Below, in pieces: positions 16,329-46,684 of a stretch of DNA of 64,000 nt (position 1 is its first letter; each line of letters opens with the position of its first letter). The position numbers and the translations under genes are program-made. Source of the DNA: a virus; IMG/VR virus record IMGVR_UViG_3300050132_000248, positions 1 through 64,000 of that record. One strand, 5' to 3'. The notes beneath the pieces were generated by a model. The model searched no databases. It had not been told where the DNA came from and worked only from the letters and a program-made list of their open reading frames with translations.

Positions 16329-17384
16329 TTATTCCTCCTCTTCTAAATCACGTTTATATTTGAGTTGTGAAATTGTACATTCATCTGGTTCTACATCATC
16401 ACGAAATTCCTTTAGAACAGGTTGAAAAAGGCTACCACCTTTATAGGCATATAAGTATTTGATTTCCAGCACCTGACCAATTTTCGGCATTTCCTGATTT
16501 GGATATACAGTTACACTTCCTACATTTACTCTAACAGGACCATCATAAAGCCACATTTCTACTGATCTTTTTCCTTCTTTTCTTTGCTCTCCTGCAATTA
16601 CAGAACATGTAGCCCTGAATTTGAATTTCAAATGATCACCCCCACTATTAGGTCTACCAGCTTTATAAAGAGAATCTTTCCTCTTGAAGACAACACCTTC
16701 AGCATTCTTCTCTTTCATTTCCTTAAAGAGAGCAATTTTCTCTCGTTGAGTAGTAGCAGTCTTTGTAATCTTGATATTATCAGAGTTCATTCTTCCCATT
16801 AATACCTGAAGTATGAGATATCTATCTATATAGGGAGATTTTCCTGACTTAATAGAGAAATCTATAGCATCCCAACATTTAAAAACCTCCCCTACAAGTT
16901 CTCCACAGAAAGTTACATCATCAGCAATATTAATCTCAATATCATGAATGATCTTCTCTGGAATAGAAATCTGCAAACCTTTCTTATTTGAGGCAATGGC
17001 TTTACCATCTTTGAAAATAACTCCAATATTTCTCCCATCCTCTTTCTCCTGCATAAGCCAATCATCATTCAATATCAATTGATTAGCAATATCCTCATCA
17101 ATTTCATTAAGAAGTTGAGGTTTATAACCAACATAATTAGAATCTGTTGGAGTAGAATAAGCCACTCCTTCACTTCCTTCATTATAACCTTTTGCCTTTT
17201 TCTCGTTAATTAACTGATTGTAAACCTTTAAGGCTTTATCAGGGGTACAATTCTCACATTTCACTAAACTCGTGAGAGCATTTCCTCTCCTTCCATATTG
17301 AACAGTAACAGTTCCTTCTGATAAGGAAACATGATATTCCTTATCCGATCTGGAATCTTTGTAATATAAAGACGTTTTTTCCAT
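16329..17384 (-). CDS. WGR domain-ATP-dependent DNA ligase fusion
   Basis: 351 residues. Residues 1-75 form a WGR-like domain (VTVQYGRRGNALTS, then helices ending in EKKAKGY). The ligase part has the adenylation motif MQEKEDGRNIGV (catalytic Lys near 113), motif III TFCGELVGE and the motif IV/V area GVVFKRKDSLYKAG and HLKFKF, then an OB-fold ending near residue 340. It seals DNA nicks during replication. The WGR domain, known from PARPs and some ligase-like proteins, may bind nicks. Confidence 0.75.
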   Translation of the reverse strand: MEKTSLYYKDSRSDKEYHVSLSEGTVTVQYGRRGNALTSLVKCENCTPDKALKVYNQLINEKKAKGYNEGSEGVAYSTPTDSNYVGYKPQLLNEIDEDIANQLILNDDWLMQEKEDGRNIGVIFKDGKAIASNKKGLQISIPEKIIHDIEINIADDVTFCGELVGEVFKCWDAIDFSIKSGKSPYIDRYLILQVLMGRMNSDNIKITKTATTQREKIALFKEMKEKNAEGVVFKRKDSLYKAGRPNSGGDHLKFKFRATCSVIAGEQRKEGKRSVEMWLYDGPVRVNVGSVTVYPNQEMPKIGQVLEIKYLYAYKGGSLFQPVLKEFRDDVEPDECTISQLKYKRDLEEEE

Positions 17385-28485: not shown

Positions 28486-29670
28486 TTAGTGAGATTTAAA
28501 ATTGTAAACAGTTTTAATAGTGTCTATTACATCTACAGTATCAACAATTGCTGTTCTTATTTCTTCAATAGATTTGTATGCCTGTGGAGATTCATCAAGA
28601 GTTTCAGGAACAACAGATGTGCTATAAATATTCTTCATAGAATCAGAAAAATCATTCATGTTTATAGTTGCTTTTGCTCTACTCCTACTCATCAATCTAC
28701 CTGCTCCATGAGGTGCCGAATAATTCCATTCTTCATTTCCTTTTCCAACACACAACAAAGAACCATCTCTCATGTTTATAGGAATAATAAGTCTTTGTCC
28801 ATTCTCTGAACTAACAGCTCCCTTTCTTAGGATCATTCTCTTGAAATCTATGTAATTATGTATTGTCTCAAATCTATCTACCTCTCGAAGATTTGCTTCT
28901 TTTATTATGATTTCAGCCATTGTTTTTCTATTAAGAATGGCAAATTGCTGAACTATTGACATATCATTCATATAATTTGCAAAATCATCTCCTGAGAGAA
29001 AAGCTAATTCCTTATCTGTTACGGGCTTCTTTATTTTCTTAAGTTCTGCTGCTATCTCCTTTTCTCTTCCTTCCTTCTTTAATTTATCAATGAGAGCTTG
29101 TGTAATAGTACTCATTTCATTAACATTCTTGAAAGCTGTATCCTGATAATATTTACAAACATCTCCTCCAAGTTTCCTGCTTCCTGAATGAATAACCAGA
29201 TAGAGTTTTCCAGTATTTTCAGATTTTCCTATTTCAATGAAATGATTTCCTCCTCCAAGTGAACCGATAGAAAGAGAGGCTCTTCCTAAATCAACATGTT
29301 TCTGACAACGTAAATTTGAGAAATCAAATGATTTTTTTGATTCTTGATGTATATTAAATCCACTTGGAACATTATTTTTAATAACATCATCAAGAATAGC
29401 AAAATCAATAACGTCTCCTTTCAGTTCACTGGTGAGCATTCCACAACCAATATCAACACCGACTAAATTAGGTGTAATTTTATCAGAGATGGTCATAGTG
29501 GTTCCAACAGTACATCCTTTCCCAGCATGAGCATCTGGCATAATCCTGATTTTAGCATTTTGGTATGCTTCAAAATTTGCTAATTTCTTCACTTGCTCAT
29601 ATGCTTCATACTCAAAGGTTTCTGCATACACAAGGGTTTCTATTCCTTTGATATTCTTAATTGTTATCAT
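28486..29670 (-). CDS. rtcB: RtcB-family RNA ligase
   Basis: 394 residues. NLVGVDIGCGML (about 69-80) holds the metal-binding Asp and Cys, GGGNHFIEIG (about 139-148) and LVIHSGSRKLG further metal His residues, and APHGAGRLMSRSRAK (about 320-334) the GMP-linked His region. RtcB joins 2',3'-cyclic phosphate or 3'-phosphate RNA ends to 5'-OH ends using GTP and Mn. In a phage it may repair tRNAs cut by host nucleases. Confidence 0.85.
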   Translation of the reverse strand: MITIKNIKGIETLVYAETFEYEAYEQVKKLANFEAYQNAKIRIMPDAHAGKGCTVGTTMTISDKITPNLVGVDIGCGMLTSELKGDVIDFAILDDVIKNNVPSGFNIHQESKKSFDFSNLRCQKHVDLGRASLSIGSLGGGNHFIEIGKSENTGKLYLVIHSGSRKLGGDVCKYYQDTAFKNVNEMSTITQALIDKLKKEGREKEIAAELKKIKKPVTDKELAFLSGDDFANYMNDMSIVQQFAILNRKTMAEIIIKEANLREVDRFETIHNYIDFKRMILRKGAVSSENGQRLIIPINMRDGSLLCVGKGNEEWNYSAPHGAGRLMSRSRAKATINMNDFSDSMKNIYSTSVVPETLDESPQAYKSIEEIRTAIVDTVDVIDTIKTVYNFKSH

Positions 29671-37657: not shown

Positions 37658-38350
<693 letters not shown>

Positions 38351-42646: not shown

Positions 42647-42736
42647 CAAACTCTCACAAGGTTGTAATCCTTGATAGTAAATAACTTTTAGTTCTCTACT
42701 ACTCAAATAAGATCGTTCAATTTGAATGAGAGTTTG
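42647..42736 (-). ncRNA. Cloverleaf-like structured element, copy 1
   Basis: Read on the minus strand, a perfect 10-bp closing stem (CAAACTCTCA with TGAGAGTTTG) holds three arms: TCAAAT/ATTTGA, GTAGTA/TACTAT-type with inner AACT/AGTT, and CAAGG-ATTACAA-CCTTG, with almost no linkers. TTTTTT follows. No genes overlap it. It lacks a tRNA T-loop, anticodon or CCA. A second element at 46561-46684 shares closing stem and last arm. The strand is inferred from the T-run and gene direction. Confidence 0.55.
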
Positions 42737-42923: not shown

Positions 42924-43493
42924 TTATTTGTATTTTAAAGCTCTTTTTGCTATGATTATTAATTTTTTAGTAGTTACAGCAGCAGCATCAGCAGCAGCAG
43001 CATCAGCAGCAGCAGCATAAGCAGCATCAGCAGCATAAGCAGCAGCATAAGCAGCAACAGCAGCATTAGCAGCAGCATAAGCAGCAGCATCAGATCTATC
43101 TTTATCACTCAACCAATCATTTGCCCATTTATTCCATTTCTTGTCTTTATAAACTAATTTTCCCATAAGAATGGCAAAAGCAACTCTTTGATTAGTAGTA
43201 AGTTTTGGAAGTTTTATTCTCTTAATAATAGTCATATGAGTATACGCTTCCTTTAATTTATCTGATTTTGACTCTCCACTTACTTCACACTCATAAAGTC
43301 TTGGATTCTTAATATTAGCATGTATAGGATTTAGTAAAACAGCTAATAATGGATGTGAATAACAATGTAACCACCCATCTGAGCACATTTCTCCTATACC
43401 AGAAGTTGTTACTTCTTTATTTAGTTTCCATTGAAAGTCATTATGTGTTGTTAATGACTGTGTTGTAAGTTTATATCTAATTATAGGTTTCAT
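42924..43493 (-). CDS. DUF7666-like protein with Ala-rich repeat
   Basis: 189 residues. The first 100 residues (IRYKLTTQSLTTHNDFQWKL, ...CSDGWLHCYSHPLLAVLLNP, ...LYECEVSGESKSDKLKEAYT) resemble a phage family I know as DUF7666. Residues 137-175 are AAYAADAA-type repeats, as in the 37658-38350 protein, and the tail is basic. The function is unknown. Confidence 0.5.
   Translation of the reverse strand: MKPIIRYKLTTQSLTTHNDFQWKLNKEVTTSGIGEMCSDGWLHCYSHPLLAVLLNPIHANIKNPRLYECEVSGESKSDKLKEAYTHMTIIKRIKLPKLTTNQRVAFAILMGKLVYKDKKWNKWANDWLSDKDRSDAAAYAAANAAVAAYAAAYAADAAYAAAADAAAADAAAVTTKKLIIIAKRALKYK
42974..43090. repeat. GCA/GCATAA trinucleotide repeat
   Basis: A shorter version of the repeat at 37757-38067, with the same cagcagcataagcagca units. 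It codes for the Ala-rich part of the 42924-43493 protein. The shared repeat may have spread by recombination or arisen twice. Confidence 0.7.
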
Positions 43494-44530: not shown

Positions 44531-44573
44531 AATATTAGTTTAAATTGTTAATAATCAATCATATATCAAAAGG

Positions 44574-44657
44574 AATGTGTAAAAATGAGAGAAGACAAAA
44601 TACAAAACACATTGTTCAACATAATACAAAATGTCTTCTCTCATAAATTTACACATT
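44574..44657. other. Long inverted repeat (about 24-bp arms)
   Basis: AATGTGTAAA-A-ATGAGAGAAGACA (44574-44597) pairs with TGTCTTCTCTCAT-AAA-TTTACACATT (44633-44657) with small bulges and an A-rich loop of about 35 bases. It lies between two minus-strand genes and has no T-run. It could be an RNase III-type processing site or a regulatory hairpin. It holds no gene. Confidence 0.6.
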
Positions 44658-44698
44658 GGTGTCATTCTGCACTACCTTCATTTCACTAATTCATTTAA

Positions 44699-45308: not shown

Positions 45309-45358
45309 AATAGATTGATTAAGTTTAACTTATAAATATATTGAGTTTTATTGTTGTA

Positions 45359-45455
45359 TTGATAAATATCAACGATATCAATGACAAATATCAATCAAAC
45401 CATTGATATATATCAATGGACTAATTGACAACTCTCATTAAATTATTGATATATC
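45359..45455. repeat. Cluster of ATTGATAT half-sites and palindromes
   Basis: TTGATAAATATCAA (45359-45372), GATATCAAT (45374-45382), AATATCAAT (45387-45395), the perfect 16-base palindrome ATTGATATATATCAAT (45402-45417) and ATTGATATATC (45445-45455). Five related sites in 97 bases, upstream of the 45051-45308 gene. It may be an operator or an iteron cluster of an origin. Confidence 0.55.
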
Positions 45456-45509
45456 TCATTCTCAATTCCTTGTGTATGTCAAAAATTTCACCGACCTTTG
45501 CCAGCAGTG

Positions 45510-45537
45510 AGCGGAGTGGAATAAAGCGAACACCGCT
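45510..45537. other. GC-rich hairpin in an AT-rich gap
   Basis: AGCGG-A-GTG and CACCGCT form an 8-bp stem with one bulge around GAATAAAGCGAA. The surrounding 45456-45562 is otherwise AT-rich and I see no gene in it. The role is unknown; a terminator without a T-run or a regulatory fold is possible. Confidence 0.45.
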
Positions 45538-45562
45538 TATCTAAAAGCTGAAGGAACAGTCT

Positions 45563-45808
45563 CTAACTATAATACTCCCGAGATAGGAATCCAACACTCT
45601 TCAAATAGAATCTTTTATTATGAGTTCTTGACAACATTGTACGAGGTTTACCATTTTTCTTGAGCCTATCTCTTATTGGATTACCACCTATTGTGTTTCT
45701 CCAGCCAAACAACTTTCTATTGGCTTCCATGGAGCTTGAAAACTCACCAATATATTCTCCATCCTCCCAATAAGCTATAACACGAATAGAATTATCAATT
45801 TCTTTCAT
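45563..45808 (-). CDS. NUMOD1-like DNA-binding protein, 81 aa
   Basis: IRVIAYWEDGEYIGEFSSSM then EANRKLFGWRN...GGNPIRDRLKKNGKPR...NKRFYLKSV matches the NUMOD1 repeat (strand, S-x-x-EA, helix, I-x-x-x-L, KxxG). NUMOD1 occurs in homing endonucleases; here it stands alone without a nuclease domain. It could be a leftover of such an element or a small regulator. Confidence 0.5.
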   Translation of the reverse strand: MKEIDNSIRVIAYWEDGEYIGEFSSSMEANRKLFGWRNTIGGNPIRDRLKKNGKPRTMLSRTHNKRFYLKSVGFLSREYYS

Positions 45809-46055: not shown

Positions 46056-46104
46056 ATGTATTCCTCCTTATTTGTCAATATAAAGCCATATTAAACTCAA
46101 CATG

Positions 46105-46195
46105 ATTGATTATTGTGTTTGGAATGAGTAAGTTTTTTACTCAATGTGGATACATCCACATCAATTATTCTCACTCAAACACATTGATAATCAAT
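46105..46195. other. Branched inverted-repeat element, 91 bases
   Basis: The outer stem (ATTGATTAT-T-GTGTTTG with CAAACAC-ATTG-ATAATCAAT) holds two hairpins: GAGTAA/TTACTC and ATGTGGAT/ATCCACAT. It lies between two small minus-strand genes and shares the branched design of the cloverleaf elements, but not their sequence. It may be a structured RNA or a cis site. Confidence 0.5.
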
Positions 46196-46210
46196 AATTT
46201 ATAACAATCA

Positions 46211-46413: not shown

Positions 46414-46449
46414 CATTAAAGTGACGTTTTCTCTGCATATAGTATCAAC

Positions 46450-46518
46450 TATTTCTCTATTTAGAATGAGTAAGCATTAGTGATACTTAAGTGTACACCT
46501 TACTTATATAGAGAAATA
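46450..46518. other. Inverted-repeat element with inner stem
   Basis: TATTTCTCTAT and its exact complement ATAGAGAAATA (11 bp) close an inner AGTAAG/CTTACT stem with a GTGTACAC palindrome. It lies within a gene-free stretch (46391-46902). It is followed at 46530-46559 by ATTCTTT/AAAGAAT, a small hairpin, and by the cloverleaf element. Confidence 0.5.
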
Positions 46519-46560
46519 ATCAAAACATTATTCTTTATTCCTCTCTATATAGAAAGAATA

Positions 46561-46684
46561 AAAGACTCTCACAAGGTTGCACCTTGACTAACTAGAATGC
46601 AAAATATTCTGCACAAGATTAGTTTCAGCCATATGGCTTATTACCAGAGCTATTAGTTATCCTTGCAATTGGATGAGAGTCTTT
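46561..46684 (-). ncRNA. Cloverleaf-like structured element, copy 2
   Basis: An 11-bp closing stem (AAAGACTCTCA with TGAGAGTCTTT) holds, on the minus strand, a short TCC/GGA arm, a large arm closed by TAACTA/TAGTTA with inner AGCC/GGCT and AGAAT/ATTCT hairpins, and CAAGG-TGCAA-CCTTG. Relative to copy 1 one base pair of the closing stem changes from A-T to G-C on both sides. No gene overlaps. It is a paired RNA family by structure; the strand is inferred. Confidence 0.55.

Follow-up and report, generated by a model that had tools for sequence, protein, structure and literature searches.

Evidence for a small structured RNA family of crAss-like phages with a constant frame and an exchanged inner domain

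Introduction

What are two gene-free, cloverleaf-like sites doing in the early region of an uncultured phage, and do they belong to a wider RNA family? The window analyzed here is the first 64 kb (64,000 nucleotides) of the 117-kb IMG/VR virus record IMGVR_UViG_3300050132_000248. A prediction made from its letters had marked 42647-42736 and 46561-46684 as copies of one candidate structured RNA and had named a tRNA-like decoy, an antitermination or nuclease-bait RNA, or an RNA processing site as possible roles. Few known viruses are as abundant as crAss-like phages, and to our knowledge no phage-specific small RNA has been described in them.

Results

Two copies in the window

Both sites are intergenic and lie where they had been placed. 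The closing stems of 10 and 11 bp, the single A-T to G-C change between them, the shared CAAGG..CCTTG arm, and the TTTTTT after copy 1 on the minus strand were all borne out, with the T6 not conserved in the family. Folding also holds on both strands, since neither site was equaled by any of 200 dinucleotide shuffles on either strand (z about -3.9 on the plus strand and -4.4 to -4.9 on the minus strand). A structural scan finds just these two copies in the whole 117-kb genome. No Rfam family matched at the two sites, and ARAGORN found no tRNA in the window.

Copy 2 is a canonical member of the short-loop subtype, 118 nt long on the minus strand (46564..46681, its stem reaching 46561-46684), and is identified by its fold and by the top structural scan score, 21. 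Its P1 5' strand GACTCTCA (46674..46681) pairs with the P1 3' strand TGAGAGTC (46564..46571) in a stem that covaries across the family. Enclosed by this stem on the same strand are the family's conserved joint TCCAATTGCAAG (46662..46673), whose TTGCA can pair with the loop TGCAA; a 75-nt variable domain, P2, that clustering leaves as a singleton family (46587..46661); and the P3 hairpin CAAGG[TGCAA]CCTTG, located by the scan (46572..46586). Copy 1, also on the minus strand, is a divergent member of 86 nt (42649..42734, stem reaching 42647-42736), identified by its fold and by a score of 17, at or above which the reversed-sequence control has no hit. The scan places its P1 strands AACTCTCA (42727..42734) and TGAGAGTT (42649..42656), its diverged joint TTCAAATTGAAC (42715..42726), and its P3 hairpin CAAGG[ATTACAA]CCTTG (42657..42673), all on the minus strand, as is a 41-nt P2 (42674..42714) unrelated to that of copy 2. 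The part between joint and P3 is thus a variable domain, wholly different between the copies. The original prediction was right to treat the two sites as one element; the three arms with nearly no linkers that it described are not the conserved design, which consists of P1, joint, and P3, and it overlooked both which strand is transcribed and the swapping of the inner domain in cassette fashion.

Other features of this region stand apart from the element. Four more long imperfect inverted repeats, intergenic and in the early region (44565-44665, 46100-46200, 46437-46531, and 45356-45440), are unrelated to it in sequence and are possibly other structured RNAs, and a GC-richer intergenic stretch adjoining inverted repeats at 45470-45570 on the minus strand (AAGCGGTGTTCGC..CCACTCCGCTCACTGCTGGC) is a candidate noncoding RNA. 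Two minus-strand genes, at 37658-38350 and 42924-43493, carry long alanine-rich repeats of the AAYAADAA type built from CAG/CAT/AAG triplets. They represent expanding low-complexity proteins, and one of them adjoins copy 1.

A family in crAss-like phages

We searched 503 loci (4.6 Mb) with a structural scan that called for an 8-nt P1 with at least 7 pairs, a joint near TCCAA(TT)GCAGG, and a P3 stem with a loop near RTTGCAA or TGCAA. The scan and its reversed-sequence control were chosen because a whole-element covariance model would penalize a P2 of 5-156 nt as an insertion. It recovered 112 distinct copies, all in IMG/VR crAss-like phage contigs. A second version that left the P1 and P3 sequences free gave 166 hits at a score of at least 17, and reversed sequence gave no hit at that score. 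Copies unselected for P1 or P3 came from four more scans, two anchored solely on the joint and two on the terminase or a neighboring protein. At least 119 viral stretches contain the exact 14-mer CTCTCACAAGGTTG, and in most of them TGAGAG follows 40-190 nt later. Together with the covarying pairs described below, these conserved copies in related phages strongly support the predicted new structured RNA family. The two sites are almost certainly members of one widespread, undescribed small RNA family of uncultured crAss-like phages.

Records usually hold one copy and some hold two; contig L096 apparently holds three, including a mini form. Prevalence was judged in relatives picked by a neighboring protein and not by the element, with at least 3.5 kb of sequence upstream. 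The element was present in 34 of 47 close relatives, whereas distant relatives, in which that protein is 49-54% identical, mostly lacked it (3/16 have one). Searches further afield found little. INPHARED phages gave no blastn match of note, and the P3 core was without a match in six of eight named crAss-like phages; in the other two, Lbo-JY46 and ProJPt-Bp1, weak matches with 2-3 mismatches were judged to be chance or tRNA-like. GTDB genomes held no match to a 23-mer and one to an 18-mer, in Desulforhopalus, which is probably chance. In Rfam 15 no family exceeded its gathering cut-off, and a permissive search with one canonical element gave only chance matches. No description of the element was found in the open-licence literature searched, PMC8040213 included.

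Some elements depart from the common form. Those of L445 (4700-4850), L448, L297, L291, and L282 have an additional hairpin and another TCCAATATTTGGATGAGAG tail located between P3 and P1', by which P1 is lengthened by TCCAA/TTGGA. Mini or decayed copies of the frame, with no full P3 or P2, adjoin full elements in the upstream flanks of L018 and L454 (ACCTCTCATCCTGTAAAGCAGGGGTTGACTTGTGGT) and at L096:189-433.

Strand and conserved frame

Genome organization and base pairing indicate that the RNA corresponds to the window's minus strand. This assignment was made because neighboring genes at about 90 loci lie almost all on one strand, equivalent to the window's minus strand (of 73 elements flanked by mapped genes on both sides, 60 have the two genes on it), and because the non-Watson-Crick pairs in P1 and P3 on that strand comprise 24 G-U and 2 A-C. 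In this orientation the CAAGG arm is therefore the last arm. The frame then reads as an 8-bp closing stem P1, the joint TCCAA(TT)GCAGG, the variable P2, and the hairpin P3 CAAGG[RTTGCAA]CCTTG directly against P1. P3 abuts P1' in all scored elements, but this holds by definition, since the scan demands it. The P3 loop has 7 nt in 100 of 115 cases and 5 nt in the remaining 15. Immediately 5' of P1, six bases are almost exclusively A or T; on the 3' side the flank is TAC-N-A.

Both stems vary in sequence while keeping their pairing. P1 occurs as TACTCTCA/TGAGAGTA, TACTCTTG/CAAGAGTA, TACTCTTA/TAAGAGTA, TGTTCTTG/CAAGAACA, AACTTTTA/TAAAAGTT, and AACTCCTA/TAGGAGTA, among others, and P3 as CAAGG/CCTTG, TAAGG/CCTTA, CAGGG/CCCTG, and CAAGA/TCTTG. 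Across P1 and P3, 9 of 13 pairs changed on both sides (0/500 shuffles). An alignment of 34 sequences, its rows picked for diversity, had 97.9% of cells paired, against 33-44% in slid controls, and 10 of 17 pairs double-changed, against 3.2 in shuffles, of which none of 500 reached the observed count.

The joint probably also pairs with the P3 loop as a pseudoknot, to judge from their complementarity. Joint GCAG can pair with P3-loop TTGC in 94.9% of cells, and L044 (GTAG/TTAC) shows compensation between joint and loop, as does L353 (GTGG/TCAC) once the pairing is shifted by one base. All 15 of the 5-nt P3 loops occur with a TT-containing joint. Counting against the pseudoknot, only one of its in-register pairs in A3 carries a double change.

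A variable domain exchanged as a block

P2 ranges from 5 to 156 nt. At the BLAST threshold used, clustering sorts the 106 distinct P2s into 63 families, 47 of them singletons, an upper figure for the sample as some are clearly related at a deeper level. P2 is not random filler, because it is structured and covaries within families: it folds better than shuffles (mean z -1.2, P=6e-9), equally strongly on both strands, and 5 of 14 pairs in one family and 4 of 13 in another carry double changes. In one phage (L020/G012) P2 is dispensable, given that the element there has a P2 of 5 nt. We found no complementarity of P2 to its own genome beyond that of shuffles (longest matches 11-14 nt), and in the related phages searched P2 occurs elsewhere only in undetected or overlapping element copies and as short, weak matches. 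These off-element matches argue against an origin as fragments of phage genes. A coding role was likewise rejected, since the apparent open frames of some families are broken in sister sequences, where pairing covaries instead.

Comparison of close relatives indicates that P2 is very probably swapped between them as a block, like a cassette. Near-identical phages whose flanks are 87-100% identical up to the element bear unrelated P2s. L123 and L456 share an identical flank, P1, and joint, have unrelated P2s, and are identical again from P3 on; L033/L069 and L477/L489 show the same pattern, and the alignments of L123/L456 and L033/L069 break at the end of the joint and resume at P3. With exact duplicates removed, and counting pairs that are not independent, all six locus pairs with both 70-nt flanks >80% identical have unrelated P2s, while 23 pairs share the upstream flank only and 31 the downstream flank only. 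Breaks in homology blocks at the frame reach 8-14 times background: the median bin holds 4, whereas 33 blocks end within the first 25 nt from the P1 start and 57 begin within the element's final 25 nt. Members of a single P2 family turn up between different flanks and next to either type of joint. Chimeric assembly is an unlikely source of these patterns because sequencing reads far exceed the frame halves (18-25 nt) in length and several combinations recur in independent samples.

Genomic setting

By its proteins the window phage is crAss-like. Its terminase is 40% identical to that of Leptolyngbya phage Lbo-JY46, 31% to those of Cellulophaga phi17:2/phi4:1, and 23-26% to those of gut crAss phages, and for the capsid protein the matches are to Lbo-JY46 and Flavobacterium Fpv phages. 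Lbo-JY46 (PP438436.1, L160) has a cyanobacterium as its listed host, and its terminase and capsid group with crAss-like and Flavobacterium phages; a co-cultured Bacteroidota may be the true host.

In these genomes the element heads the early unit, on the downstream side of the early/late divergence: opposite-strand genes (late, terminase) lie 2.5-5 kb upstream of it and the genes downstream are on its own strand. In phi17:2 and Lbo-JY46 this place is taken by tRNA arrays, and tRNA-Arg(TCT) is often found near the element. In the gut crAss phages cr115_1 (L522:9994-11167) and cr55_1 (L525:9641-10793), the early unit opens with about 1.1 kb in which no genes are annotated, a gap that may hold unrecognized RNAs. 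One viral contig carries a tmRNA gene (L035:2736-3128, minus strand; tag EAKTEMLIAA) 1.4 kb from the element.

Elements show no enrichment of a promoter of their own (Bacteroidota-type, 5/105 upstream against 5/103 downstream). A GC-rich hairpin with a T run is not a family feature (1/110 downstream, 6/110 upstream), which speaks against an intrinsic terminator and against the antitermination role first suggested. The distance to the next gene runs from about 0 to more than 1000 nt and the neighboring genes differ; as the element keeps no fixed place immediately before any one gene family, we rejected a riboswitch. RNA-end chemistry had been raised on account of a nearby RtcB gene. The window phage does encode RtcB (28486-29670, E 3e-130), along with a WGR-RNA/DNA ligase-like protein (16329-17384, minus strand), yet RtcB occurs in none of the 19 other phage records (1/20), and this link was set aside. 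Hatchet ribozymes (RF02678, 81-82 bits) share the element's strand and precede it by about 500-760 nt in several contigs (L075:2069-2206, minus strand; L444:258-395; L455:2353-2515; L464:3450-3586). Among 20 phage records, only 3 have one. They are likewise structured RNAs, with a motif distinct from that of the element.

Discussion

Comparison of the sequences establishes the family, its strand, the covariation of P1 and P3, its position where the early unit begins, and the replacement of P2 as a block. Taken together, these data suggest that the element is an RNA part caught up in the conflict of phages with their hosts or rivals. We envisage small structured RNAs that crAss-like phages of Bacteroidota would make from their early transcript. 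Each would be cut out of a longer transcript, a step we infer because no promoter or terminator of its own was seen and the 5' flank is nearly all A/T. The frame (P1, joint, stacked P3, and the probable pseudoknot) would protect or deliver P2, and each P2 would serve as a small RNA effector or recognition module against a factor of the host or of a rival phage. Rare or novel P2s would be favored, which would drive exchange through recombination at the frame.

As a whole, a scaffold RNA with a swappable, conflict-related P2 is our best explanation, and we regard its being correct as evenly balanced. The narrower claim, that a constant RNA scaffold displays effector or recognition domains that are interchangeable and evolve under diversifying selection, is tentative and somewhat less probable than not. 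Rather unlikely is a new RNA system of crAss-like phages in which a constant pseudoknotted scaffold carries RNA specificity domains swapped between phages by recombination at the scaffold, in effect a cassette system of RNA weapons or counter-defences. An effector role for P2 would best account for a domain that is structured and conserved within families, yet replaced between near-identical phages.

We weighed this explanation against several others. The element could be mainly a DNA recombination joint, a conserved boundary or attC-like structured site that reshuffles early modules with P2 as a passenger. Homology blocks end at P1/joint and P3/P1' at the elevated rates given above, left flank, P2, and right flank reassort independently, and paired conserved ends around a variable inside recall integron attC sites, in which conserved paired ends surround a variable terminal structure that is a focus of recombination. 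The boundary sequences of lambdoid phages, short and conserved, similarly join unrelated modules. However, the strand-specific G-U excess (24:2), the compensatory changes in P3 and between joint and loop, and the internally covarying P2 families point to RNA. The element's ends, ACTCTCATCC and CCTTGTGAGAGT, do not match the attC core sites RYYYAAC/GTTRRRY; attC-type arrays with gene cassettes are absent, as genomes carry one or two copies, mostly one per record; and a non-exhaustive search saw no dedicated recombinase gene beside it. Unlike either comparison, the boundary here is a covarying RNA structure and the module exchanged inside constant ends is the element's own P2. We consider such a joint unlikely as the main role, but it may coexist with the scaffold, the frame then providing both support for P2 and homology for cassette movement. 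An early-mRNA processing or stability element (a nuclease site, 3'-end protector, or spacer) with a freely drifting P2 would fit a position between early genes, the lack of own promoter and terminator, an A/T-only 5' flank like single-stranded nuclease sites, and the minimal L020 form without P2. Drift, however, predicts graded P2 divergence matching the flanks, whereas unrelated P2s lie between 87-100% identical flanks and the same P2 families recur elsewhere, and we find this account improbable.

The likeness to tRNA bears on a further possibility. A decoy or nuclease bait would use P1 and P3 as acceptor and T-arm, dock the joint in the P3 loop as a D-loop docks in the T-loop, replace the anticodon domain with P2, and titrate a tRNA-targeting host factor. 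P3, with 5 bp, a 7-nt loop, and a G53-C61-like closing pair, joins the 3' strand of P1 without a linker as a T-arm joins the acceptor, the probable joint-loop contact is elbow-like, and the element occupies a phage tRNA region; T4 stable RNAs C and D likewise lie in the T4 tRNA cluster. These likenesses of place and shape keep the predicted decoy alive as a possible variant of the effector explanation. Against it, the tRNA rules fail, as originally noted: the loops are RTTGCAA or TGCAA rather than the T-loop TTCRANY, the 3' flank TAC-N-A holds no CCA, P1 is longer at 8-11 bp, and the swappable P2 families share no anticodon arm. ARAGORN does not match the elements, and the Rfam tRNA models (RF00005) match true tRNAs nearby but never the element. 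We judge a decoy quite unlikely as the primary explanation. There is also a slim chance that the element is an antisense RNA of superinfection immunity or incompatibility, with P2 defining compatibility groups. Phage and plasmid antisense immunity RNAs exist (c4 of P4/P1, plasmid ctRNA), and such a role would fit frequency-dependent diversification; against this, the complementarity of P2 to its own genome does not rise above shuffles. GOLLD, ROOL, and other ornate phage RNAs in Rfam are also phage noncoding RNAs of unclear function, but they are far larger, and the element matched no Rfam family.

In this common RNA, an inner domain that turns over faster than the surrounding genes shows the pattern of host-range, immunity, and anti-defence proteins, here found in a noncoding RNA. 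The element offers a concrete marker and natural swap pairs, in which one phage backbone carries different P2s, for testing the role of RNA domains in the outcome of infection.
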